A stretch of DNA of 64,000 nucleotides from NCBI GenBank assembly GCA_000310025.1, contig FN648236.1, positions 155,984 through 219,983 of the forward strand, given 5' to 3'. Of the stretch, positions 9,001-63,319 are shown piece by piece (position 1 is the first letter of the stretch; each line of letters starts with the position of its first letter). Source of the stretch: Ectocarpus siliculosus (lineage: Eukaryota > Sar > Phaeophyceae > Ectocarpales > Ectocarpaceae). The notes beneath the pieces were generated by a model. It did not search any database, was not told the DNA's origin, and saw nothing but the letters and a program-made list of their open reading frames with translations. Made by a program: the position numbers and the translations under genes.

Positions 9001-12000
9001 CCAAATCGATTGGTTAAAGCCAGGACAGGGTGGCGGACTCCGGGAGAAAGCTGGCGGGGCTTGTTTGCAGAGGAATTCTTGATTAAGTGCGCTTCCGAGA
9101 CTATATTTTCGTTGTCCAAGGTCCTCTAAGAGATGCCTATAGTGTCTTTTCTGAAAGATGCATATAGTGTCCTGTAGGCAGCCAGAAAGACGAGGAGGAA
9201 TGCTACCCGCAATGCCCTAAACAGAGCAGTGACTGGTTGTTGTGGTCACACCGGAAGCTTCAACACGCATCTAACCCCTGCCTCCCCCCTCTCCCCCCAC
9301 CGACGATACAAGGGGTGGTGTGATGGAGCATTGGGTCTCCTTGGAGGCGCCTGCTGCCTACGGCCTGTCTGTACACGAGGACGGCACGCTGGCTGTGGCC
9401 TGCGCCGACGGGGTTGTCAGACTGTTCAAGGCCGACAGCCTCGGCTACGTCGCCACCCTGCCGCGCCCGCCTCCGCTGGGCCACGCCAACATAGCCTCCG
9501 TGAGGGAGCTCCAAGAGATCGCCGACTTGTCGGCTGCGGCGGCGAAGGCTGGCGCTGCCAGTGGCAACGGCGCTGCCGGCGACGACGGTGTTGGCGCGAG
9601 CCCTCGCGCCGTGGCCGAAACGTCCTTCGCTAGTGGGTTTTGTGGCACAGGGGATGCTGCGCCCGAGGAAAATGACAGTGTCAACGTCGGAACCATCGAC
9701 AAAGATGCGTTCGGCAAGGTGAAGAGTGGCAACGGCGACGCCAGCAGTGGACACAGGTCGGTGGTTCGGTATCCCGCGGCGCTGGGGTGCCGGCTTACCC
9801 CCTCCGGAACGAAGGTGGTGTGCATCTACGCTGACAGGGGGCTGTTTATCTGGGACGTAACGGACCCGCTGTGCGTCGGCAAGTACCGGTCGTTCCTCGC
9901 ACACGGCGGCTGTATCTGGGACGTCCAGCGAATGCCCGGTAAGCGCCGAACGCTGCGCTTTTTACGCACACGAAACGGGGGTGAAACACGGACAACAAGC
10001 GGGGAGTAGAGATTTCTTTTGTGCCGGTAACCTCTACGATCGCTCGGTCGGAGAGACTTGTGAATGATAATCTAAACCGCGTGCCACAATTCAACCCTCT
10101 ACTCGCTTATGTTTTCAATGCTTCAAGTTTCGCATATTTTCTCCTCTTTCTACACACACCGACACATGAGGGCATTATCCAGCAACCGAGCAACGGACGA
10201 GTCGTTCAGGGAGCCCGGGGGGTGGCGTACTCTTATGTTTTGCATGCGTTAGCGGTTTGACCATTGAGCGCGCGTCCTCGAGAAGACAGAGAATTGTTTC
10301 CACAGGACCGATGACCGATGGCCAATCATTCTTTCCTACTTTGCCAAAGGTGGTTCAAAACATTTACCCCGGTCTATCTACCCTATCCCTATCACTTCCC
10401 GCCTTTTCCACCCACTTCCTATATCCCAGTACAGCTACCGTATTCTCCTGGCTATATCATGCCTCAAACATCTCCCTGTATGTTCCTTCTACTTCTCCCA
10501 GCCCAGTCGTGTACACTTCCCTCTCTTTCTTGTACAATGGACACTCCGTATTGGCATGAACCCGGTCTTCGCCTTCGGAACCGCATTCACGTTTGAACTT
10601 GTCGTCTTCATCCGGTCTTCGCACTCGGAGCCTCAATCGCATTTGAACTTGTCGTCTTCATCGTCCACCGTCCTAAATCGTCGTCTACGTTCTCGAAGGT
10701 CAATGTCCCCGGTCCTAAATTTGACCTTCTGCTTTGTCTTTGCGTCCATTGGTCCATGTAGGTACCCCTTTTTGAACCCTATTCCTTCATTCCGTACAAA
10801 TCTAGACCTTCCTTCTCCTCGGGGTCTGTGGTTAGATTCTGTTCTTCTCTCTCGGCGAAAGCAACAGCGATCTTCTCCTTGAATCTCTCTCGACCTTCCG
10901 TTTCTAGTGTGTCACCTTCGTCAAGTCCTTCCATACGTCATCTACAACCTTGGCCCACTCCGTGGGTTGGCTACCCCTCCTCTTGCTTAGCTGCTTTGCC
11001 TCCCAAGCTATTGTCGGCAACCTCTCCTCTCCCATACCGTACATGCGGTACTGCCATTTTGTTTTCCTTGTGCCTCTTTCCGATCGTAAGGCTTGGGTCC
11101 CCAGATATTCCCTGACGGCTGCTTTACGTGTGAGCTTTGAGCGCCCTAGGATGATTTTCGCTGCTTTCATCTGCGCCGCCTCGAGCTCTGACTACGTTCT
11201 TATATCCTTTCCATGCTTCTTCGGCGTACTCTAGCGGCGGTACGATTCCGCTATTCAATCTTGCCAATCTGTGCGTGTATCGAGGTGCCTGTTTGCGCGT
11301 ATTGGGTACAGCTTCCCTGCTCGTGCTTTGCCCTTTTCCGCTACCTCGGACATGTGTGCATTCCACGAACAGTCTACTCCCACGGGGGGTTAAAAACTCC
11401 GAGACAAGCTAGGAGCCAGATGACAACATGCTCTCCATCATGTTCGTGTATTCGCGTGGAAGTGTAAAATTCATGGGCCCCGGAAATATCTCGTAAGAAC
11501 ACCTTATCACACGGCGTGCCCCGTGCGTCTGTCATCATTTCCGGCGCAGCGAAAATCCCCACGCTTCCGGGGGCTGGGAGTCAATCGCCCCCTGTCCCAG
11601 ACATCCCTGCCGGGGCGATGGTGACTTGCTCGGCGGACAACACGGTTCGAGTGTGGGATCTCGGGGCTCTCGATGGGAAGGGCACTGGTGATAACGAGAA
11701 TCGTCACTCCGGCAGGCAAGTTGATCAGCAAACGGTAACGATCATTCGACACACTCCGATTTGGGGTCAGGTAGTCGAATCGGGAAAGCTTTCCCGTCAT
11801 GTGTTTCGGTTTCCTTCCTTTTTATCACAATGCCCTGTTTGTCATGCCATTCGAGACTAACCATCATGGCCACCACCACCAACAACGTGCACATTCTTCC
11901 CGCCGTGCGGCTGCGACCGCGTTTTTGCCGCTTCAGGTGGTCCAACATCTACAGCAAGCACCTCCTGCGTGTGCTGTACGCCAGTGGGGAGAACACTCGT

Positions 12001-27293: not shown

Positions 27294-30200
27294 ATGGAGC
27301 GCACCAGGATGGACACGAGCACGCTGGACCGCGTCAGCAGGCTGGCATCCAACGTGGGAGACGCCACGTCGATCCAGGTGTCGCTTGGAGCCCTGGAGTG
27401 GGACATCAAGCTTGTCGATGGCGATGTCCGTAAGTTGTTGTCCTGCCTGCAAGGCAAGCCAGGCGCACAGACCTACGCGGGCACCAGCAACGAGACCGAG
27501 CAGGGCAGGGCCTTCCTGAAGAAGCAGCTCGATGGGCTCATGGCCGAGAAAGCACAGTACAAGGAGAAGAGGCTGGCCCTCTTGCAGCTCCAGCAGGAGC
27601 TCCCCAACCTCGAGGAGGACGAGGAATACGCCGCAGGTGAGTGGGGTGTGGCATGCGCACGCATGCGGCGTGTTTCCGACTAAACTGCAGTAGGAGAGAG
27701 CTCTGCGCCTGCTGGCACTCCGGCATGCCCATCCCGTCGCCCAAGCTGTGAGAACGACCCTCTGGGCTCGACTAGGACGCACGCCTTGTCACGCACGGGG
27801 TATTACCGCGGCTGTACCTCCACCGCAGTTGCCGTGATTTTCAAATAAACCTAGCATACGTCACCCAAGCATGATTACGTACCCACAGATGTTCCCTCCC
27901 CGCCTTCCGGATCGGTCGATGTAGCATCTGCATATTGGTTTGAATTCCCGAGCAGGGATACCCTTCGATACAAAAGCCGGCTACACAAAGATGAGAGAGA
28001 GCCCCTAGCTTGTGCTGCTCTGCTTGGATCATGATTGCACGTGGTACACGCTGTCGTCCGCGGCGATTTCACAGAACAAAAAAAATGCGGGTTTTATGTT
28101 TGATGACGGGTGGTGATGACACATGGGGGTGTCATCTTCGGACCATTCCCTGTCAGAGGGCAGCAGAAAAAATACAAGTGGCGGCGGAAACATGAAACAC
28201 CTGCAATAGATATGGTTATGAGTTATGAACGCGCAACCTTCCAACGCGTTTTCTCCAAGCCCCTCCTCTCCCGTCACGCGCGAAGAAGCCTAACAACCCT
28301 CCCTCGCGCCTGACCGTCACCCTCCCGCTGAACCAGGAGCCCCAGAGCCCGAAGCCCCAGCCCCGCCGGCGGCACCAACGGAGGAGGAAGGTGAAGAGGA
28401 TGATGTGACGTTGGCACCAAGACCGTTTATCTACGCACGTGCTGCCCTCCCCCGGTGTTTCGAGATTTGCTAAGCAATTACCCACCCTTCCTCCTGGGGC
28501 GGACTGGACATGGTCAGACGTACACACGCCGTGTGTCAATCTCAAAGGGAGTACATGCTACGTAGCTGAAAAACACGAGAGATGATGTTCGATGATTTTT
28601 TTTGGTACGTGTTCGAGGTCTCCCGACGCTACGGGAGAGCGGCGGCGGAATGCGAGCATGTAGACTAAGTTTGAGAGCCGAGTGCCCGGATCCCAAAAAC
28701 GATACAGGAAATATCTGATAGAGCATTAGGAAACCGCTGTGGCGCTGGTTTTCGTACGCCATGAGCCTACCCGGGTGTACGAATCTACTGCTGTAGATAT
28801 CGGGCAAAGTACAGCGGTGCGACAGCACACACTCTTTGCTGTGGCCTATTCCGCTTGGAACCATGTTTGTGTGACCCTCACATCATGACGTTCGAAACCT
28901 CAAGGGACTCAAGGTGCTACGGACGTTATGGCGTCGGCCCGGGTGAATTGCTGTTCGAAGTACTGAGGCGCGAGATACTGCAATATTGAGGCCTATGCAT
29001 ATCATCATTGTGCCAATGGGGCTGAGAACAAGTTGTCAATTTACCGTTCGACCACGCGAGAATGGTGTCAAACGAGGGTCGGACCAGTACAATGCACTTG
29101 TGTTGATGATGCCCCCTCTGATGGGGCCGTTCTATGCACATACTTTGTCTCCCATCCTGTACATGCCATGGGAAATTGGGTTTTCACCTACGCAGCGGTT
29201 GTTCCATTCTTCCATCCCTGAAACTCGTGGCCTGGCTTGTGAAGCCAAGCTTGAAACTGGCGATGTACTTCGTGCGATATCCTGTGCATAGAAGCGATGA
29301 AAGCTGACCGATCACCGAATTAATCTATAATAATTTGACGCCCCGCCTCATTTGTGTCTTCTAACCCCCACAGCAGTTCAGTATAACACGTTACATACAA
29401 GTATAGTGTAGAAATTGTGGACAAATCGTTGGAAATTCATTACTGCAGTGTGCGGGGGGCGAAAAACGGTTGTTCACGCCGCGTGGCGATTGGCCTTTTG
29501 ACACTGGAACGCTTTCCTTCGCTTCGATATTTCCCGTCGCTCCCTGCCGTAGACAAGGCGGCCGTCGCCGCCACCACCGTCGTGTGGAAGGACACAGTGA
29601 CTAGCGGCACCTACGATGCCCCCAAGAAGACGGCGGCTCTCTACGCCGAGGACGGCGTTCTCTGGGGAACGGTCTCGGAGGAGGTCCGCGACACCCCTGA
29701 GCAGATCTACGCATACTTCGTGAGTCGTTGGTCTTCATCGTTGTCGTTGGTGGCGGTGTTGGTGGTGTTGCCGTCGTCATTGTGATCGCCATTGTTGTGT
29801 TTGTTGTCGCAGGTGGTTGTTGACGCACGCCGAGAGCCGTTCCGATCTCATCTAGCGTTTTTTTGCTAGTTTAGGTGCTTTTTTATTTTGGGCGTCCTTG
29901 CGCTACGCGCTCTCAAGAGGTTGCCACCAACCACGTCGCTCCGCCCTCCTTCTTGTCGTTTTCCTGAACCCCCGCTCCATTCGTACAATATTAATGTTCC
30001 GTCCCCCAAGACTGCAGATATTTCAGCAACATTAACCGAACCAAGATGGAACACAACAACCCTATTACGTCCCCCCAAGACTGACAAATTCTTAAGTGAC
30101 CCAAAACAAGATGGACAAAAAGACAAGAACAGTAAATCCCCCAAGACAAAAAAATATCTAAACATTCACACAAGATGAACCAAACAACCCACCGTCTGTT

Positions 30201-33200
30201 TTATCCTCCCCCCCCCAGGACTACTTCGCCCGTCTCCCCGAGCTCCGCCTGGTGGAGTACACCCCCGTGGCGGTGCGCGTGTACGGCGACTTCGCGGTCC
30301 AGGCCGGCACGTACACGTTCGCGTTCCAGGGGGCGGACGGGGCGACCGTGGAGAAGAGGGCGCGGTTCAGCTTCACGTTCAGGAGGGACCACCCGGAAAG
30401 CCCCACCCCGTGGACGATCGTCGAGCACCACTCGTCGTCCATGCCCAACGCGCCGGCGGGGCTCAAGCGCGTGAGTGTGGTGGCGACGCGCCTCGGAGTC
30501 AGGCAGTTGTGGTGGTCGAGGTGACGTTATGTGTCGGTCGTTGCTGCTGCGGCGACACGGGTTGATTTTTGTGTTCTGGTCCCATTTTTATTTTTGAGAC
30601 TAGACGATTTTTTGTTTGTTGTCGAGACAACAATACCACAATTTATTCTCTGGCCGACTCGGCAGTCTTGGCTCACCTTTCGGCGTACCATGTTGGAAGC
30701 ACAGAACGGGGTCATGTGTAGGAGGAAATTCTCCGCCGTTCCTCCTGCGGCGCTTGCCCCCAAGGTTTATGCGCGAGAAGGGTTGATGATGCGGCCGTCC
30801 CTTCTTTGCCTTGTTGTGCGTGTACTCACGGCCATCTGATCGACCCGGCCTCCCCTCAACCGCGCCGCTGATACCTCAGGTCGGACCGAACGCGGAGCTC
30901 GTGAAGGTGACGCCGAAGGAGCTCGAGGTCACTCCCGGTAGGTGTAGCTGTTGCTGCCAAACTGCCTTATGCTGCTGCTTTTTGTGCTTTCCGCCGCTGC
31001 ATTGTTTCTGCGTATGCTGCTACCGCTGCTACTTTTGATGTCAAAAGGCCACTTTTTAACACGACAGCCCTCGGTCTGAACGTGGCATCTAGGCCCCGCA
31101 GGACTTAAGTCTCCCGGATCGAGATCTCAACTTCCCCCCGCCCCCCCCCTTCGCGTGTGTTTTTTTTTTTTTTCGATGGGGCAGAAATGAAGGCCGGGTC
31201 GGAAACGACGATCGTGTGGAAGGACACGGTCACCCTTGGCACCGAGGATGCCCCCAAAAAAACGTCGGCTCTCTACCCCGAGGACGCCGTGCTGTGGGGA
31301 ACGGTCTCGGAGGAGGTCCGCGAGACGCCGGAACAGATCTACGACTACTTCGTGAGTCACCGCCGCCGCCGTCTTTATTGTCGTTGAAATTGTTGATGTG
31401 GTTGTGTTTGTTCGTTGTTGTTGCTGTGTAGCTTGTAGTTGTGAACTGTTGCTGTAGCTGTCGCTGTGGCTGCCGTTTCGGTGATTGTTGTTGTTGCCGT
31501 CGTCGGCTACTTGTTTTCTCCCGCCAATCTGGAAGCTCATCCACCCGGCGTCACGCCCGCTCCCCCCTCTGACTTCCCTGCCACCAAACGGAAAAAACAT
31601 CAGGACTTCTTCGCTAGGCTCCCGAAGCTGAGGCTGGTGGAGTACAGCCCGGCGCCCGCCCGCGTGTACGGCCAGTTCGCCGTACAGGCCGGCACGTACA
31701 CGTTCGCCTGGCAGGGGAACGACGACGAGACCGTCGAGAAGCGGGCGCGGTTCAGCTTCACGTTCAGGAGGGACCACCCGGAGAGCCCCACCCCGTGGAC
31801 GATCGTCGAGCACCACTCGTCGTCCATGCCCAGCGCGCCGGCGGGGCTCAAGCGCGTGAGTTTAGAGGAAGCTCAAGTAGGACTGGATAAGAGGAAGGTT
31901 GACCCGCCAGTGGTTATATAGCCCCACCGTGGGACTTTGCATCCGACATGCACCGCGGTTCAGCACCCTACCAATCTCGCCGCGTTTCATCACCCCCCCG
32001 TCACTGTGAGGTCGTTTCCTGTTGCCTCACTGCTCGTGAGTACTCTGTACAGTGGTGTTGCCGTTCCTTTCTCGACCTTCCCTTTCCCCCCCCAAGCAAC
32101 CCTCGTAACCAGACACAGTTCAAACTAGCCCATCCCAAACCCGGCCTAGCTCATCGTGCATCCCCGAAACCTTCGTGTGCTGAAACGCAGGTCGAGAACG
32201 ACCCCGCCGCCGTCATGGACGAGGTTGTCGTCGAAGACGCCCCCGCCGTCGTTGCCGCCGAAGAGCCCGCTGTCGTTGCCGACGAGCCCGCCGCCGAAGC
32301 GGAACCAGACGTCGTTGAGAAGGAGGCGCCGGCGGCGGAAGAACCGGCTTCGGAGGAGGCGGAAGAGGTGCCCGACTTCTCCGTCGTGCCCGACGAGGAG
32401 GTGAGAAGATTTTTCGTTTACGTTTTTATTTATTTATTTTTTTTACAATTGTGAACCCTTTTGGGTAGTTGGCTTCGTGCGTAATTTTTTGTTTTCATAC
32501 CTAAGTGTCTACCTTTTTGGGTGTAGTTGGCCCGTGTGACCACGGAAGGCGTCTGCGTAAGGTTAAGCCCGGTACACGGGTGCTGTAAGGTGCTGAGCAG
32601 GACCCGGAACGGTTTTTATCGTGACGACCGAAAACAAAATTTTTGTGGAGATCCCGCGTCATCAAGGGTATATTCTCCCCAACCTCTTGGAGGGCGATTC
32701 CCTATTGTGGCACACGTGATTTTTGTTGTGCTTCAGCCACACGTCCAAACCTCAAGACCCACTCGTAACAGAGAACGATATTGCCTAGTACCCTCGGAAG
32801 GCGCGACATTCGGCTTCCAATTTCGTAGCTTCCTTGTCAGCCGTGAACGTTTGAATCCCGCGACGTTTTTGGCACCGAATCGACCACGAACCCTTCCCCT
32901 CCCGCTCATTGTGCCGCTTCGGGTTGTTCACCGATATGGTGTTTCGCGTGTTGTTCGGCAGCCATTCGTACCTCCCACTCACCCGGTGGACGTAACGATA
33001 ACCGTGGGTTCGAACGGGTTGGGAGTCATCCTTGGGGAAGAGAAGGAAGGCACCCGCTGGACCGTAAAGGGTTTCCGAAACATGCCAGACGGCGACAAGG
33101 GCCCCGCGGAGGTGTGGTATTTTGTAGAGCGGGGGGGGGGGGGGGGGGGGGGGGGGGGNNNNNNNNNNNNNNNNNNNNNNNNNNNNNNNNNNNNNNNNNN

Positions 33201-33826
33201 NNNNNNNNNNNNNNNNNNNNNNNNNNNNNNNNNNNNNNNNNNNNNNNNNNNNNNNNNNGAAGGGAGGGGGGGGGGGGGGGGGGGGGGGGTGTACTCATAG
33301 TCGTGCATGCCGTAGTCGTTTGACCATTGACCTCGCATCCCTACAAAGCCGGGGTTGTCGTTTGGGATGGGAGGGAGGGTTTTATCTGATTGTTTTTTGT
33401 TCTCCTGCCGTGTCGTTTTTTGTTGTGTCGTCGAGTTTTCTGTCGTTCGTTGTTGTGGCGCTTTTTTTCTCTGCTGTGGTCGCTCGTCTGTTTTGCTTGG
33501 CCCATTTACATGGTTTCGTGTGAACTACGATGATGCTGTGCTTGGCATACACATGTGTTTCCGTGCTAACGATGCCGATGACAGCAGTGAAGATGTACTT
33601 TTCTCGTAAACGATGATCGTATTGATGTGCTAAAGCTCATTTTGCATGCCACTACACGTTCGTCTGTCTTTTCGCTCCCCAGGTGGCTGGCGTTGAGGTC
33701 GGGGACACGCTGCAGAAGCTCGAGGGGGTCATCCTTGGATCCTACAAGGAAGGGATGGCCATGTTTAAGAAGCAGACGGGCTCCTTCTCCCTCACGATTC
33801 TCCGTCAGGACGAAATCACCATCTAA
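27294..33826 (+). CDS. Tandem iota-carbonic-anhydrase-like (CaMKII-AD/SgcJ-EcaC) protein with C-terminal PDZ-like domain
   Basis: Exons: 27294-27635, possibly one acidic exon from 28348, 29558-29719, 30219-30470, 30880-30937, 31185-31351, 31604-31855, 32191-32400, 32962-33111, 33683-33826; phases agree. Start ATG at 27294, stop TAA at 33824. The N-terminal exon (114 residues) is helical and unrecognised, with no evident signal peptide. Two copies of one domain follow. Each has VWKDTVT.GT.DAPKK, LW GTVSEEVR.TPEQIY.YF, GTYTF, RARFSFTFRRDHPES and WTIVEHHSSSMP. That is the SgcJ/EcaC and CaMKII-association fold; within it, algal LCIP63-type proteins with HHSSxMP are iota-class carbonic anhydrases (CO2/bicarbonate interconversion). 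Then come an Ala/Glu/Pro acidic linker (70 residues) and a PDZ-like domain (GLGVILGEEKEG, VAGVEVGDTLQKLEGV, FSLTILR). Carbonic anhydrase activity is inferred; joining the first exon to the rest is less certain. Confidence 0.8.
33159..33258. other. Assembly gap of 100 N flanked by poly-G
   Basis: Exactly 100 N, preceded by a G28 run (33131-33158) and followed by a G-rich run to about 33289. It lies inside the last intron (33112-33682) of the CaMKII-AD/PDZ gene, so coding sequence is probably not lost, but the true intron length is unknown. Confidence 0.98.
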
Positions 33827-53519: not shown

Positions 53520-54653
53520 TCACCACCGAGAAACGCCTCGTTGTCGTGGAAAGGGGGCGGATGCGAGAAGATCTCCAATTATTTCCTCCGCCGCCGACGA
53601 AAAATCCAGAACGGCAACGGCGTGTGCCGCCGCCCCCGCCGCCGCCGCCGCCCGTGCAACACGCGGTTCAAAACGAAAACATCTCCTCCACCACGGGTTC
53701 CGCTCGAGCACGCTGCTGAGCACGACACTCGGCGTCACTGTGCGTGGTTGACCTGTGCTTCGAGCACCATTTCCCCGCCTCTGCGCGACAACGGCTGGAA
53801 TTGCTCCAACCCTCGCCAGTCTCCTCTGCAGTGCCCTGCATTTCGCCTTGATGTCCCCCGGCTCACAACAGCAGTAACCAGATTCCTTTGGAGTATTGGC
53901 TGCTTGGCGGCTCCGACGCATGTACGTCCGCTGAATAGTGGCCTCGATCTGCGGAAGGTCGAACTCGGGGTCCTTGGTCACGAACAACGTCCTCACGAAA
54001 TCGTACTCTTCGGTGAGGTGTTCGATAACGATGAACTCAAGCTCGTCATAAGAATCAACTTCTCCTTGCTCCTTCTGCAGGTCCGTGCGAAGCTGATGCA
54101 GTGTGTTCAGGTACTCGTCCGGGTCTTGCCCGACAGACATTTGGGTGTGGTTCAAAGCGTCGCGGATGACCCGTGGAGAGGCGTACTTGGCCTTCAGCTC
54201 CCTCCACCCCGTTTGCCCGTTTGGCCCGTTTCCAATGCCGCCCGCGCGATTATTCCCCCCATGGCGTTTCACTAAGCCCTGGGGGATACCCGTCGTTGTC
54301 AGGCATAGCACGGCTTGCAGTCTTGAAGACGCACGATCCCATCGCGCCACTGTCATGGCGCCCTCCTTTTTCCCACCATCATCGTCTCCTCCTCCACCAA
54401 CTGAGTTGGAATTTGTGATGGAACTCTCCGCCGAAGGTCGCTGCGCCCCCCGAAGGACTGCACAGATATCCTCCTCCTTCGACATGGACAGCAATAACTG
54501 GATGCCATGGGCCCAGTTGCTGTACTGGATTGCCCAGGTGCTTATTCCCCTAGCTTCGAACTTCGTGGAGTGTTCGATAACGCGCCAAAGGTTTCCTTCG
54601 GATGACTCGTCCATGGTTGGCTGCACGATTGGTGTTCTTTTTTTGTTCTTCAA
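53520..54653 (-). CDS. Copia-type retrotransposon gag polyprotein
   Basis: An uninterrupted frame of 377 codons resembles the gag region of LTR/Copia elements, the structural protein that packages element RNA. Family-like parts are LWRVIEHSTKFEARGISTWA near the N-terminus, WRELKAKYASPRVIRDAL, DPDEYLNTLHQLRTDL, EFIVIEHLTEEYDFVRTLF and FDLPQIEATIQRTYMRR. The expected CCHC zinc knuckle near residues 265-280 is present only as YCCCEPGDIKAKC and lacks the histidine and the normal cysteine spacing. The last 90 residues are Ala/Arg-rich and unlike gag, so the frame may have run into other sequence. The likely start is the second Met (MDESSEGNLW, at about 54614). No pol follows and no LTR pair or primer binding site was recognised. 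It is either a fragment or a domesticated gag. Confidence 0.7.
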   Translation of the reverse strand: MKNKKRTPIVQPTMDESSEGNLWRVIEHSTKFEARGISTWAIQYSNWAHGIQLLLSMSKEEDICAVLRGAQRPSAESSITNSNSVGGGGDDDGGKKEGAMTVARWDRASSRLQAVLCLTTTGIPQGLVKRHGGNNRAGGIGNGPNGQTGWRELKAKYASPRVIRDALNHTQMSVGQDPDEYLNTLHQLRTDLQKEQGEVDSYDELEFIVIEHLTEEYDFVRTLFVTKDPEFDLPQIEATIQRTYMRRSRQAANTPKESGYCCCEPGDIKAKCRALQRRLARVGAIPAVVAQRRGNGARSTGQPRTVTPSVVLSSVLERNPWWRRCFRFEPRVARAAAAAGAAAHAVAVLDFSSAAEEIIGDLLASAPFPRQRGVSRW

Positions 54654-56922: not shown

Positions 56923-59593
56923 GTCGTCCACGCCGTTCATGGTCAGGAGAACCCCGTCCGACGCGCGGAACACGGCGAGCGTAGGGATGCCTCCCTTTCG
57001 ATCGGAGGGAGACATGCCCAAGGCCGTCACCTCTGATCCAGCACACGCCCCGAAACGCCTGTTGTAGTTGAATTTTTGACCGCGGGAAGAACAAAATGAT
57101 AAAGTGAGGGTGTGATGCGGGCCCGGCATGGCGCACGCCGTTATGCGGAGCGGTTGCTGGGGCGGTGCTGAGAGTTTATGGAGGCGCTTATTGGGCGGAT
57201 CTGGTCGATGCTCGCCCTGTCTTGCAGAAGTCTTGTGAAAAAAGGACCTACCACTACATGTGATATAGGGGGTACAACACCATTCCACTAAACCCTGAGA
57301 GCTCCCTCTCCGGTGTTCTTGTTGCAGGCAAGGTAGACCTTGCCAGCGGCGGTTTCACGATATTATATCTCCATTTTGCGAGGGTGCCGGTGTTCCGGGC
57401 GGCAACCCATCCGCAGGAGAAACATGCGATGAATTGTGGGAGCTAGAGGACCAGTCCTACCAGTGTCACCCTATGCAGTCCTTCCTTCTCATGCCTTCAT
57501 ACTGGTCAAACAAAAAAAAAAAACGCGTGTTTAGGCAAGTTTAGGCAACTAACTCGTTTCTCTCGCCTTTTGAGATCAGCCCGGTGTTCGCCGTCGAAGG
57601 TCACGGCCGGCCAATCCGCGTGGAGAACTTCGGAAGTTGCGAGGCCCCGGGCGAAAGCAGACACATAATAAGAAGGAAAAGACAGCGCAAGAGTTTCGTC
57701 GGGTTGGATGCTGCTGTCGTTACGCGTTCCTTTCAAGTTGGCTGGCTTGCCAAGCTCGGGGAATCCATGCCTTGGTCCCGATGGGCAAAGTTACCGCACG
57801 TTAGGCTAGCCCAGCAACATCTGAATCCTTAGGCAACACGCAGGGCGTTGCGCACCAACCGGTTGGCCTAATCTTGTGTCCCACTCTTCTCGTCTGCGCG
57901 TTGTTGATCTCGCAGGAAAAAATAACCCCAACCCCACGACTCGCAGCAATGTGATCTCACCCTCCTCCATGTAACGGCGCTGGAGTTCCTCGCTCCTGTC
58001 CGAGCTAATGAAGACGATGTCGGCCTGACCTGGCTTGAACCCCTTGAACGCTTCCACTAGCGACGGCACGAACCTCACACAGTCTGCCAAAAGCGTGAGG
58101 TCATTGGTGTGGAAGGCGCGGTTAGGGATTCTGTGGCATTGAGGCACTGGGTTGCTACGGAAATGCAAAACGCCTCTTGTGTCCGGTTGTAGAGATACTG
58201 GCTGATGTCAAACTCCAGCGGCGGAGAACAGGCTACTGAGGATTGCTGACAGAGGTAAGGAGAGAAAGAGAGGGAAAGGGAGAGAGGGAGGGAGAGGGAA
58301 TATGGAGGGAAAAAAGAACACCTATGAACACAACGCCACGTCTCTGGGATCGCTTCGCACCTGTACATATTCTGAAGCAAGTTTGTGTCGGGCTCCGAAT
58401 TCGCTCAGAGGTTGTGATGAGCGGGTGATCGCGTTCAGTATGCGAAAAAGAGTACCGGAAACACGTACACACAGATGCATGATGTTTTCCTTCCTTGTTT
58501 TTCTGCATCGTCCGACATGTGTGATACGTCTGTCTGCATATTGTACACTTTTCGACACTTTGGCACGAGCTCAGCACAGACTGCATCGCCGATGTGATTG
58601 ACTGGCCGCCAGGCGAACATCAACTCATCCCTATCGAACACAAAAGCAATTTTAGTAGGAGGTTCCTGTGCATGTCGTTTTGAGTCAAGGCGAAGATTGT
58701 CTTGTAGAGCAAATCCTCTGTGATCAGCTCCGGATCTTGAGAAAGGGCAGCAAGAGGTCGAAGAGAAGGCAGTGTGCTGCCGCCTGGGGTGTATCGCATC
58801 CGGCCTCTTCACACTACGTACCCTACCCCTGCCTACATGTATACCAGATTCCTGTGTTGTTTGTCGGAAACTCCGTGTTGAGTGCTGGCGTGCTGCGACG
58901 CAGCAGTCCCCAACGTATCGACCGGCAGAGACAAGAACGGAAATGTCACATAGTCTTCCAATGCTGGCGTGTACTGCTGTAGCGCCAGGATCCTCCTCGG
59001 TAATCGGTTGCATTTGTACTTGACCCTCGGACACGTTGAAGTATTAGTATCACTCTCCTAGAGAGCCACCTCCAGAGTTGTTATTCTTGGCAAGGTTGCC
59101 CCCTCTCACCCACGCTGAGCATATGCATAAATGCGCCACCGCACACAGCGCGTATGAGTAGCGGTTACCCCCAATCTACCCGGATCGGTGAATCGGTACA
59201 TCGGTCCAAACGTCCAAACCTGGGGGACATCTGCGGAAAAACTTGTTGTGACACTGCTTTAATTGTACAACAGTAGATAACTTCGCGCATGCGGTCGTTC
59301 TCTCTCCCGCTCCCTGTGCAATGCAACTGAACTCCACTGCACACTGCAAGTGATTACCACTGCTGACCTGCTGCTGCACCCGTAAAGGGCTTTGTGCCAA
59401 GAGCACCATCACGACCCTGCACATTGTCACCTCGGGTCAACTACAGTAGACAACAACAAACCATCCAGGAACCCGACTCACCAGGGCACCACTGGCTGGA
59501 GAAAAACAGACAGAGCAGAGGCGCGTTTAGTGACGGTGGCGTAGCAGCGCCCGCCTTGGCCAAGAACAGGGGAACTCCATCCAAGATACTCAT
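56923..59593 (-). CDS. Nucleoredoxin-like thioredoxin-fold protein (3' end not found)
   Basis: Exons in transcript order: 59593-59482, 58083-57961, 57627-57567, 57058-56923. The start is ATG at 59593-59591 (MSILDGVPLFLAKAG). The first intron splits the active site; the join gives LLCLFFSSQWCPDCVRFVPS, a WCPDC redox motif in place of the usual WCPPC. Then come DIVFISSDRSEELQRRYMEE, DWPAVTFDGEHRADLKR, RFGACAGSE and GIPTLAVFRASDGVLLTMNG. This is the family order: beta-strand, CxxC helix, SSDRSE, W-P, GIPTL with the cis-Pro. Such proteins are cytosolic or nuclear disulphide oxidoreductases. The third intron needs a GC donor (AAG/GCGAGA) to keep frame. An insertion of about 15 residues before GIPTL is longer than usual. 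A last exon after 56923 is expected but was not found. Confidence 0.75.
58255..58318. repeat. Purine-only (GA-rich) tract
   Basis: About 60 bp on the plus strand are nearly all purine (AGAGAGG/GGGAGAG-type runs), inside the first intron of the nucleoredoxin-like gene. Simple sequence of this kind can form triplex DNA; no function is implied. Confidence 0.75.
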
Positions 59594-61050: not shown

Positions 61051-63319
61051 TCCGAGCCAGATGTCCCGGGGCCCGAGAGTCTGAGCATCATGGTGGCAAC
61101 GGATAGCCACCTCGGGCGAGTGTGAAGCGATTGTTGGAAGAACGGCCCGCGCACTTGTTGCGCCAGGCACTTGCACTGCTGCCGTTGTCGGCTTGCTGTG
61201 TGTCCGGCGCCTAGCACGCTGACTTCGTTTTTGTTTGCTAGATGCTTCCCCTTTGTCATGACAAGCACTCATGAAGCGAGACGTGTCGTACAGCGCGACC
61301 TATGCATATGCATTCGAGTAGTCGTATTCCGGTAAGTTTTTCTGTCTGTTGAGCTTGATATGTTATCTGTACATAGTTGCGCTACTTCCAGTGGTGTTCA
61401 CGTTGGGTGGGTGCCTTTTTTGGCTTTCACGTCAAAATGGTGTTACCTTTTCGTCTCCCGACTATCCGTTGTTGCGCTTTTTGTCATTCTCGTCTTTTGG
61501 GTGCAATAGGTACATGGAGCGAGACCCCGTGCGGGGGAAAGACTCCTTCGCGGCCTTCGAAGAGATGCTTCTCCTTGCAAAGGAAAGAAAGGTGAGGCGC
61601 GATTCACGGTGGCCCCAGCAGTGCATCTTTCCCGCGAAGCTTTGCTGTGTTGTCCTGGTGTTAGTTTCATGGCTTGGGTGATTCTCGCCGCAAGTTACAT
61701 GGCCCAGTGTTGGCGAGAGCAGGGCTCAGCGGTACGGAAATCGCAGGGTAAATGTCTGTACGATCTGATGGCCTTGACGCACAACACATACCCTTGCTGT
61801 GCAAAAATGTTGAGGAGCCATGTCTAGAGGACGAAGAACACTATGTAACGCCGGCTGTATAGAAAAGTACGGCTGCCTCACGACAACACTCATTGTTTGT
61901 ATGGCCGACCCTCTCAGACCCAACAAGTAATCCCATGTGGTAGCGTCCGCCTGTCATTCTTTGCCCAGAGAAGAGGCGCTTCCGGAAGATGAGGTAGTCT
62001 TCTTTGTCACTGCACCTCGTGGTTTGTGACGAACGCAAGAGGGTTTGGTGAAGTTCCCGGAGGGTGTGTGAATATATTCGGTGACATCTCTTGATGGTTG
62101 CTTCTTCGATTGTCATCGTCGATACCGAGGCCATCGGCCACCACCACCACGACCACCACGACCACCGCCAAAAACAACAACTACGTCTCACCACGAAAAA
62201 GGGGGGGACTGTCGCCATAAAAAATAGGACGAAAACACACACACAAACAACACAACAACAACAACCTCAGGTGGACTTCGTGCTGCTAGGAGGGGACCTC
62301 TTCCACGAGAACAAGCCCTCGCGGCGCACTCTGTACCAAACCATGGACATCTTGCGGCGGCACTGCATGGGAGATGAGCCCGTGAGCTTCCAGATCATCA
62401 GCGAGCAGGCGCACAACTTCAAGGACAGGCGAGGAATAGTGCTTGCCACCACACGTGGAACGCCGCCGCTGTGCGTGTGTCTCGTTATTCTGCATTTTAC
62501 AAGTTCTGTTTGTTGATATCGCTCGCTTGCTGTTGTTTCCCCTGATGCGGTTTCCGGAATGAATGACCTCGTTTTCTTGTGTGCTTTTCCATATCTCGGC
62601 TTTTGTTTTTTTTTGGCTGCCAACAAGAGGGAACAGAGTGCTGCACTCTTCTCGCATTAATAATCGAAGGCAAAGTGCCGCAGGAGAGGTGGGTAGGGGA
62701 CCTCAGGGAGGGGAACCTTTCTGTGTGACCACGGGTTGGGGTAAACGGCACAAGTGCTGTGAGCGCTGATTTTTAGTGATAAATACAATAAAAAATAGAC
62801 CGGTGTGTGATGCCCTTGTGCATTTTTGTTGTTGTGATCTCGGATGGAGTCGATGGTTTGTCGAGGCCTCGCTACTGTCGCTCTTGGTTCTGCAGTACTT
62901 GCCGTTGAAGCACGCGAGGTTTTTTGAGAAACTCGTCGCGATCATGATTCCATTCTTCCGTGGGGCACTCGTGATACGTGAGAGCTATGGCAACCTCTCA
63001 TCGTCGGGGTGCGATAAGACGAAGCGGATGTTTTTTTGTTTTTTTTTTGTATTTACGCGTTTTTGTTTTGTTTTTTACCCTGGTTTCGTTGTTTCGTGGA
63101 GAACGAGAACGCTTCAAGTATTTTTTTTTTTTTCATGTGTCGTGTGACAGGTTCGGGCACGTGAATTACGAAGACCCCTACTTTTCGGTGGGGCTCCCTA
63201 TCTTCAGCATCCACGGAAATCACGATGACCCCACCCGTGAGGGGGGAGTGGAGGCCCTCGCGGCCCTCGACCTTCTGCACGTGGCCAACCTCGTCAATTA
63301 CTTCGGCAAGAGCAACAAG
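61051..63319 (+). CDS. MRE11: MRE11 double-strand-break repair nuclease, 5' part
   Basis: N-terminal half of the nuclease domain of MRE11, the Mn-dependent phosphoesterase of the MRE11-RAD50-NBS1 complex that processes DNA double-strand breaks in the nucleus. Exons: about 61051-61115, 61510-61591, 62271-62428, 63151-63319; phases agree. Motif I is VATDSHLG, followed by the conserved [20 protein letters not shown]. Motif II is [17 protein letters not shown]. Then come [16 protein letters not shown], and motif [15 protein letters not shown]. The Asp, His and Asn metal ligands in these motifs are all present. The last exon ends NYFGKSNK at a GT donor; the remaining motifs lie beyond the window. 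The introns after 61115 and 62428 need GC donors. The initiator Met is upstream of 61063 or is the Met in motif I (SIMVATDSH), which would be short for the family. Confidence 0.88.

Follow-up and report, generated by a model that had tools for sequence, protein, structure and literature searches.

The presumably nuclear gene at positions 27294-33826 of the window (here, the whole stretch of 64,000 nucleotides analyzed from Ectocarpus siliculosus contig FN648236.1) probably encodes a cytosolic iota-carbonic anhydrase (CA) addressable through its own PDZ domain, a reading to which we give a probability of about 0.6 and in which catalysis, location, PDZ ligand binding and partner identity are the parts that we infer. 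On the plus strand, ten exons with GT-AG introns and consistent phases are joined into a single frame of 598 codons (598 residues), the ATG and the stop codon occupying the very ends of the interval that an earlier, sequence-only reading had delimited. The encoded protein is successively composed of a helical hairpin, two iota-CA domains, an acidic linker and a PDZ domain (Table 1). Codon scoring places most of the exons at the top of the window's coding segments, a ranking which is not independent as the scoring was trained partly on these very exons. The acidic linker encoded by exon 8 has no clear sequence counterpart in the paralogs, and the last intron contains an assembly gap (window 33129-33290) flanked by long poly-G runs. 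Elsewhere in the window, likely exons of a protein kinase (3-290), a MABP1/WDR62-like WD40 protein (9344-9628), a copia gag (53919-54212) and a thioredoxin-like protein (57953-58078) were observed, along with an MRE11-looking exon (62268-62429) which Pfam did not confirm; in the genome, contigs C92, C488, C232 and C16 carry large arrays of light-harvesting-protein genes, many with identical scores, the many matches to such proteins being those of a photosynthetic eukaryote.

Table 1. Exons of the window gene (window coordinates) and related loci of the same genome (contig coordinates).
Feature	Location	Strand	Basis
Exon 1: N-terminal helical hairpin, residues 1-114, start codon	27294..27636	+	Structure model; Met and first residues kept in closest paralogs
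Exon 2: Pro/Ala/Glu-rich linker, residues 115-132	28337..28390	+	Phase-consistent GT-AG only; least certain exon; paralog counterpart not traced
Exon 3: iota-CA domain 1, first half (Thr172, Tyr187)	29553..29719	+	Paralogs share boundaries
Exon 4: iota-CA domain 1, second half (His258, Ser260, HHSS)	30219..30470	+	Pfam, 3h51 match, structure model
Exon 5: linker between CA domains, VGPNAELVKVTPKELEVTP	30880..30937	+	Homologous exon in paralog, C9:5771637-5771693, 79% identical
Exon 6: iota-CA domain 2, first half (Thr331, Tyr346)	31185..31351	+	Splice frame; paralog loci
Exon 7: iota-CA domain 2, second half (His417, Ser419, HHSS)	31604..31855	+	Splice frame; paralog loci
Exon 8: acidic Glu/Ala/Val/Pro-rich linker	32191..32400	+	Splice frame, codon scoring
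Exon 9: PDZ first half, GLGV carboxylate-binding-type loop	32962..33111	+	PDZ profiles, paralogs
Exon 10: PDZ second half, C-terminus ...DEITI, stop codon	33683..33826	+	PDZ profiles, paralogs
Paralog: hairpin, two CA, PDZ	C9:5777315 to 5766404	-	Module searches and rescan
Paralog: hairpin, two CA, PDZ	C9:5820811 to 5828439	+	Module searches and rescan
Paralog: doubled hairpin, one CA, PDZ	C9:5790170 to 5797960	+	Module searches and rescan
Paralog: hairpin, CA, CA	C9:5789313 to 5783290	-	Module searches and rescan
Dynamin-like exons and PDZ	C27:2026500-2013646	-	Dynamin_N 1.9e-14, PDZ family match

Judging from their sequences, both central domains are COG4875/LCIP63-type iota-CAs, as the sequence-only reading had recognized from the WGTVSEEVR, GTYTF and HHSSSMP signatures, each of which was found twice in the protein. 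Searches with the whole protein retrieved two CaMKII_AD/DUF4440 domains above the Pfam cut-off (PF08332, 3.3e-17; PF14534, 5.3e-18), and the C-terminal HHSS motif of each domain lies within EHHSSSMP, at residues 257 and 416. Among solved structures, the closest is the Xanthomonas protein 3h51 (6.6e-18 with one domain and 4.9e-24 with the paralog profile); the COG4337 iota-CA 7c5x gave a weak and partial match (3.6e-7 with the paralog profile), and on this comparison membership of the COG4337 type (7c5v-7c5y) was rejected. Exon 4, modelled by itself with AlphaFold (mean pLDDT 85), forms the NTF2-like sheet, for which a fold search returned 3h51 and many CaMKII hubs along with other matches. Between the two repeats, DNA identity amounts to 80% for exons 3 and 6 and 87% for exons 4 and 7, with differences mostly at third codon positions. 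Since most forks of the CA-domain tree are unresolved, a possible single origin of CA1 and CA2 before gene duplication is judged from the variants that they share and not from support values.

It has been reported that Thr, Tyr, His and Ser are the active-site residues of iota-CAs and that, in two COG4337 iota-CAs, alanine at the equivalent residues inactivates or impairs the enzyme (PMC8132391), the diatom active-site positions being Thr62, Tyr77, Phe78, Phe81, His139 and Ser141 (PMC8395977). In the window protein, the four residues are present in both domains (Table 1) with their neighboring Phe188/347 and Phe191/350, and the Thr-Tyr spacing of 15, the YFxxF motif and the His-Ser spacing are as in the diatom tp-iota-CA. 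The loss of catalytic residues, which the earlier reading had named as evidence against itself, was thus not seen, equivalence of the four residues to 3h51 being established by sequence alignment, not by superposition. Because these residues and their spacing match those of tested iota-CAs, both domains are expected to be catalytically competent.

Paralogs were sought in the genome with each module separately and the loci were then rescanned, which revealed four paralogous loci clustered in a segment of about 65 kb on contig C9. At three of them, hairpin, CA and PDZ follow one another in this order, all on one strand per locus, and intron positions within the CA domain and within the PDZ are identical across the CA-linked copies; no PDZ was found at the fourth locus (5789313 to 5783290, minus strand). 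As the paralogs repeat both module order and intron positions, the hairpin-CA-PDZ fusion is real and not a modelling accident. The gene model itself is built on DNA alone and spans introns of up to 1.2 kb, so that its hairpin, CA and PDZ exons could in principle belong to separate neighboring genes. This explanation is extremely improbable and was rejected on the synteny of the C9 paralogs: order, strand and intron positions recur there at three more loci, where PDZ and CA exons are linked and not separated, separation in transcripts being what the sequence-only reading had named as evidence against itself, and splice phases match across the whole window gene. Pairwise Nei-Gojobori dN/dS between paralogs, for which some dS values are saturated, is about 0.08-0.21 for the CA domains and, in CA-linked copies, 0.10-0.29 for the PDZ; hairpin values range from 0.22 to 0.66, the comparison of the window gene with its closest paralog giving 0.22. 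Purifying selection between paralogs thus acts on the hairpin, on each CA domain and on the PDZ and, given these low ratios, each module is very probably translated and constrained. Downstream of the paralog without PDZ, an ORF (C9:5780767-5780234, minus strand) has the hydrophobic stretch AAVAAAIVGFVAAVLMA, which might be a membrane anchor replacing the PDZ in that paralog, its link to the gene being putative.

Outside contig C9, the relatives on contig C25 (L045, L046) and the second copy on contig C6 (L044:6688-6927) have lost HHSS, which is changed to HCTF, HYSF and HHAV, and are likely to be catalytically altered or dead. Because these copies lost the motif, the CA-type fold can persist without HHSS. 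Such retention of the fold, together with the CaMKII hubs being structural neighbors, is in line with the NTF2-like domains of the window protein serving as an assembly hub or bicarbonate sensor instead of an enzyme, with the hairpin and PDZ as a scaffold. We consider this unlikely, as neither domain of the window protein has lost any of the four catalytic residues or of the flanking Phe, nor have the CA domains of the C9 paralogs, with dN/dS near 0.1-0.2, and we favor an active iota-CA. Five near-identical CA-domain copies, four on contig C476 and one on C479, reflect either a recent duplication or redundancy of the assembly. A further single-domain iota-CA relative is preceded by an ORF that is rich in Arg and poor in acidic residues, MNALLSTRSGLTVTQAATRLAIAKIPVRHMSG (C479:659397-658984, minus strand), and resembles a mitochondrial presequence. 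Pattern scans of genome contigs and viral sequences returned no bacterial or viral relatives, a negative result attributable to the method, as relatives with about 37-41% identity are retrieved from plasmids by tblastn.

The helical N-terminus, which had been noted as unrecognized and devoid of plastid or ER signal, kept both attributes. Exon 1 was modelled as a long helical hairpin (mean pLDDT 78; helices 24-53 and 69-113) whose helices are joined by a conserved, YAG-containing loop. The fold search gave nothing significant (best E about 1, with prefoldin, the CHMP4B hairpin and bMERB as generic matches), and the sequence search gave one weak match (1skv, 0.065). The closest paralogs have kept the start Met and the residues that follow it, the upstream sequence is non-homologous and the first 60 residues contain no hydrophobic segment (maximum 19-residue mean hydropathy, 0.62), which argues that the protein is probably cytosolic, although an additional exon further upstream may exist.

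The acidic linker and PDZ-like domain recognized at the C-terminus by the earlier reading were also recovered, and the PDZ appears, by profile comparison, to be genuine but divergent. As a single sequence, the window PDZ is weakly matched (Pfam PDZ_6, E=0.05, below the Pfam cut-off); the profile of the five-member PDZ family clearly matches many PDB PDZ domains (7xft, 3.2e-6; Scribble PDZ1, 1.5e-4), PF17820 is matched by five of five members (best 4.9e-6) and the GLGF-type carboxylate-binding loop is kept in all as GLGV or GLGL. Since position alphaB1 is occupied by Lys, Arg or Gln in place of the His of the aligned Scribble PDZ1, class I specificity is not indicated. The absence of His, and the hydrophobic C-terminal residue which the window protein and two of the paralogs carry directly after the PDZ, would also fit a PDZ that self-associates within or between copies via its own C-terminus (...EITI or ...EVLI), with no tether to another protein. 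However, the C-terminus varies, the C9:5797960 paralog ending in ...QNGAK and the dynamin-linked PDZ in ...RQKA, and it follows the last PDZ strand almost immediately, making self-association quite improbable compared with the binding of a partner.

Contig C27 carries the fifth PDZ of the type encoded by exons 9-10. This PDZ is located downstream of dynamin-like exons (Table 1), has an intron at about the same place as in the CA-linked copies, and possibly forms one dynamin-PDZ gene with these exons. The occurrence of the same module after dynamin-like exons suggests exon shuffling and, if this PDZ is spliced to them, it is a mobile module in the Ectocarpus genome. As one copy adjoins a dynamin-like gene, the PDZ is more suggestive of a general adaptor than of one dedicated to carbon uptake, and its partner need not be a transporter.

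Based on these features, the following mechanism can be proposed for a PDZ-addressable iota-CA. The two COG4875/LCIP63-type domains would interconvert CO2 and bicarbonate using the Thr-Tyr-His-Ser site and, by analogy with solved relatives, would probably pair via their beta-sheet face, while the helical hairpin may contribute to oligomerization or protein binding. The acidic linker, being flexible, would allow the C-terminal PDZ to bind a partner via the partner's own C-terminal tail, and the bound enzyme would be positioned where inorganic carbon moves or is sensed. The weakest step is the putative connection of the PDZ to a carbon-uptake partner: anchoring to a membrane or carbon-uptake complex, as envisaged in the sequence-only reading, stays a proposal because the PDZ does not have the His typical of class I and a copy of it lies beside a dynamin-like gene. 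It is conceivable, albeit doubtful, that a CA family gained its own PDZ address and oligomerizing hairpin by exon shuffling, to become a one-chain, carbon-handling metabolon which, within the cytosol of a multicellular alga, is directly docked onto a bicarbonate transporter or channel. The built-in PDZ provides a direct handle for the partner and could be used as bait.

No iota-CA-PDZ fusion was found in the non-subscription literature searched, the only eukaryote genome covered being that of Ectocarpus, which agrees with the earlier statement that a PDZ tether was not known in iota-CAs; published descriptions (PMC6776030, PMC8395977, PMC8425729) do not mention a PDZ. Ectocarpus and Saccharina homologs of the iota-CA domain were already listed in a 2019 study. 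A 2026 survey of Saccharina CAs, using HMMs for alpha, beta and gamma domains and BLAST queries, reported only these three subfamilies (PMC13212357), and the Ectocarpus CA-PDZ family is thus a repertoire likely missed by algal CA surveys.

Among known systems, LCIP63/tp-iota-CA from Thalassiosira pseudonana resembles the Ectocarpus protein by its repeated CaMKII_AD-like domains, several per chain, by HHSS and by the identical local spacing of Thr, Tyr, His, Ser and Phe. Diatom LCIP63 differs by its ER and plastid targeting signals and its two to four repeats, and neither a PDZ nor an N-terminal hairpin has been described (PMC6776030, PMC8395977); the ER signal and plastid peptide are features of diatom members and do not define the iota-CA class. 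The CaMKII_AD-like protein 3h51 from X. campestris, the closest solved sequence, and the bacterial SgcJ/EcaC-type iota-CAs (BteCA-iota) share the fold and motif, but are bacterial, single-domain proteins without extra modules. The metal-free COG4337 iota-CAs (Anabaena all2909, Bigelowiella Bn86287; 7c5v-7c5y) have equivalent catalytic residues and fold, but form a distinct sequence family. Regarding the PDZ, a mammalian SLC4 transporter is described in PMC4098744 as binding PDZ proteins via its C-terminus. Exons of SLC4-type bicarbonate transporters are present in the Ectocarpus genome, on contigs C5 and C139. Animal SLC4 transporters binding PDZ proteins offer a works-like analogy in which a PDZ is linked to bicarbonate handling, the transporter, the PDZ scaffold and the CA being separate proteins in animals.
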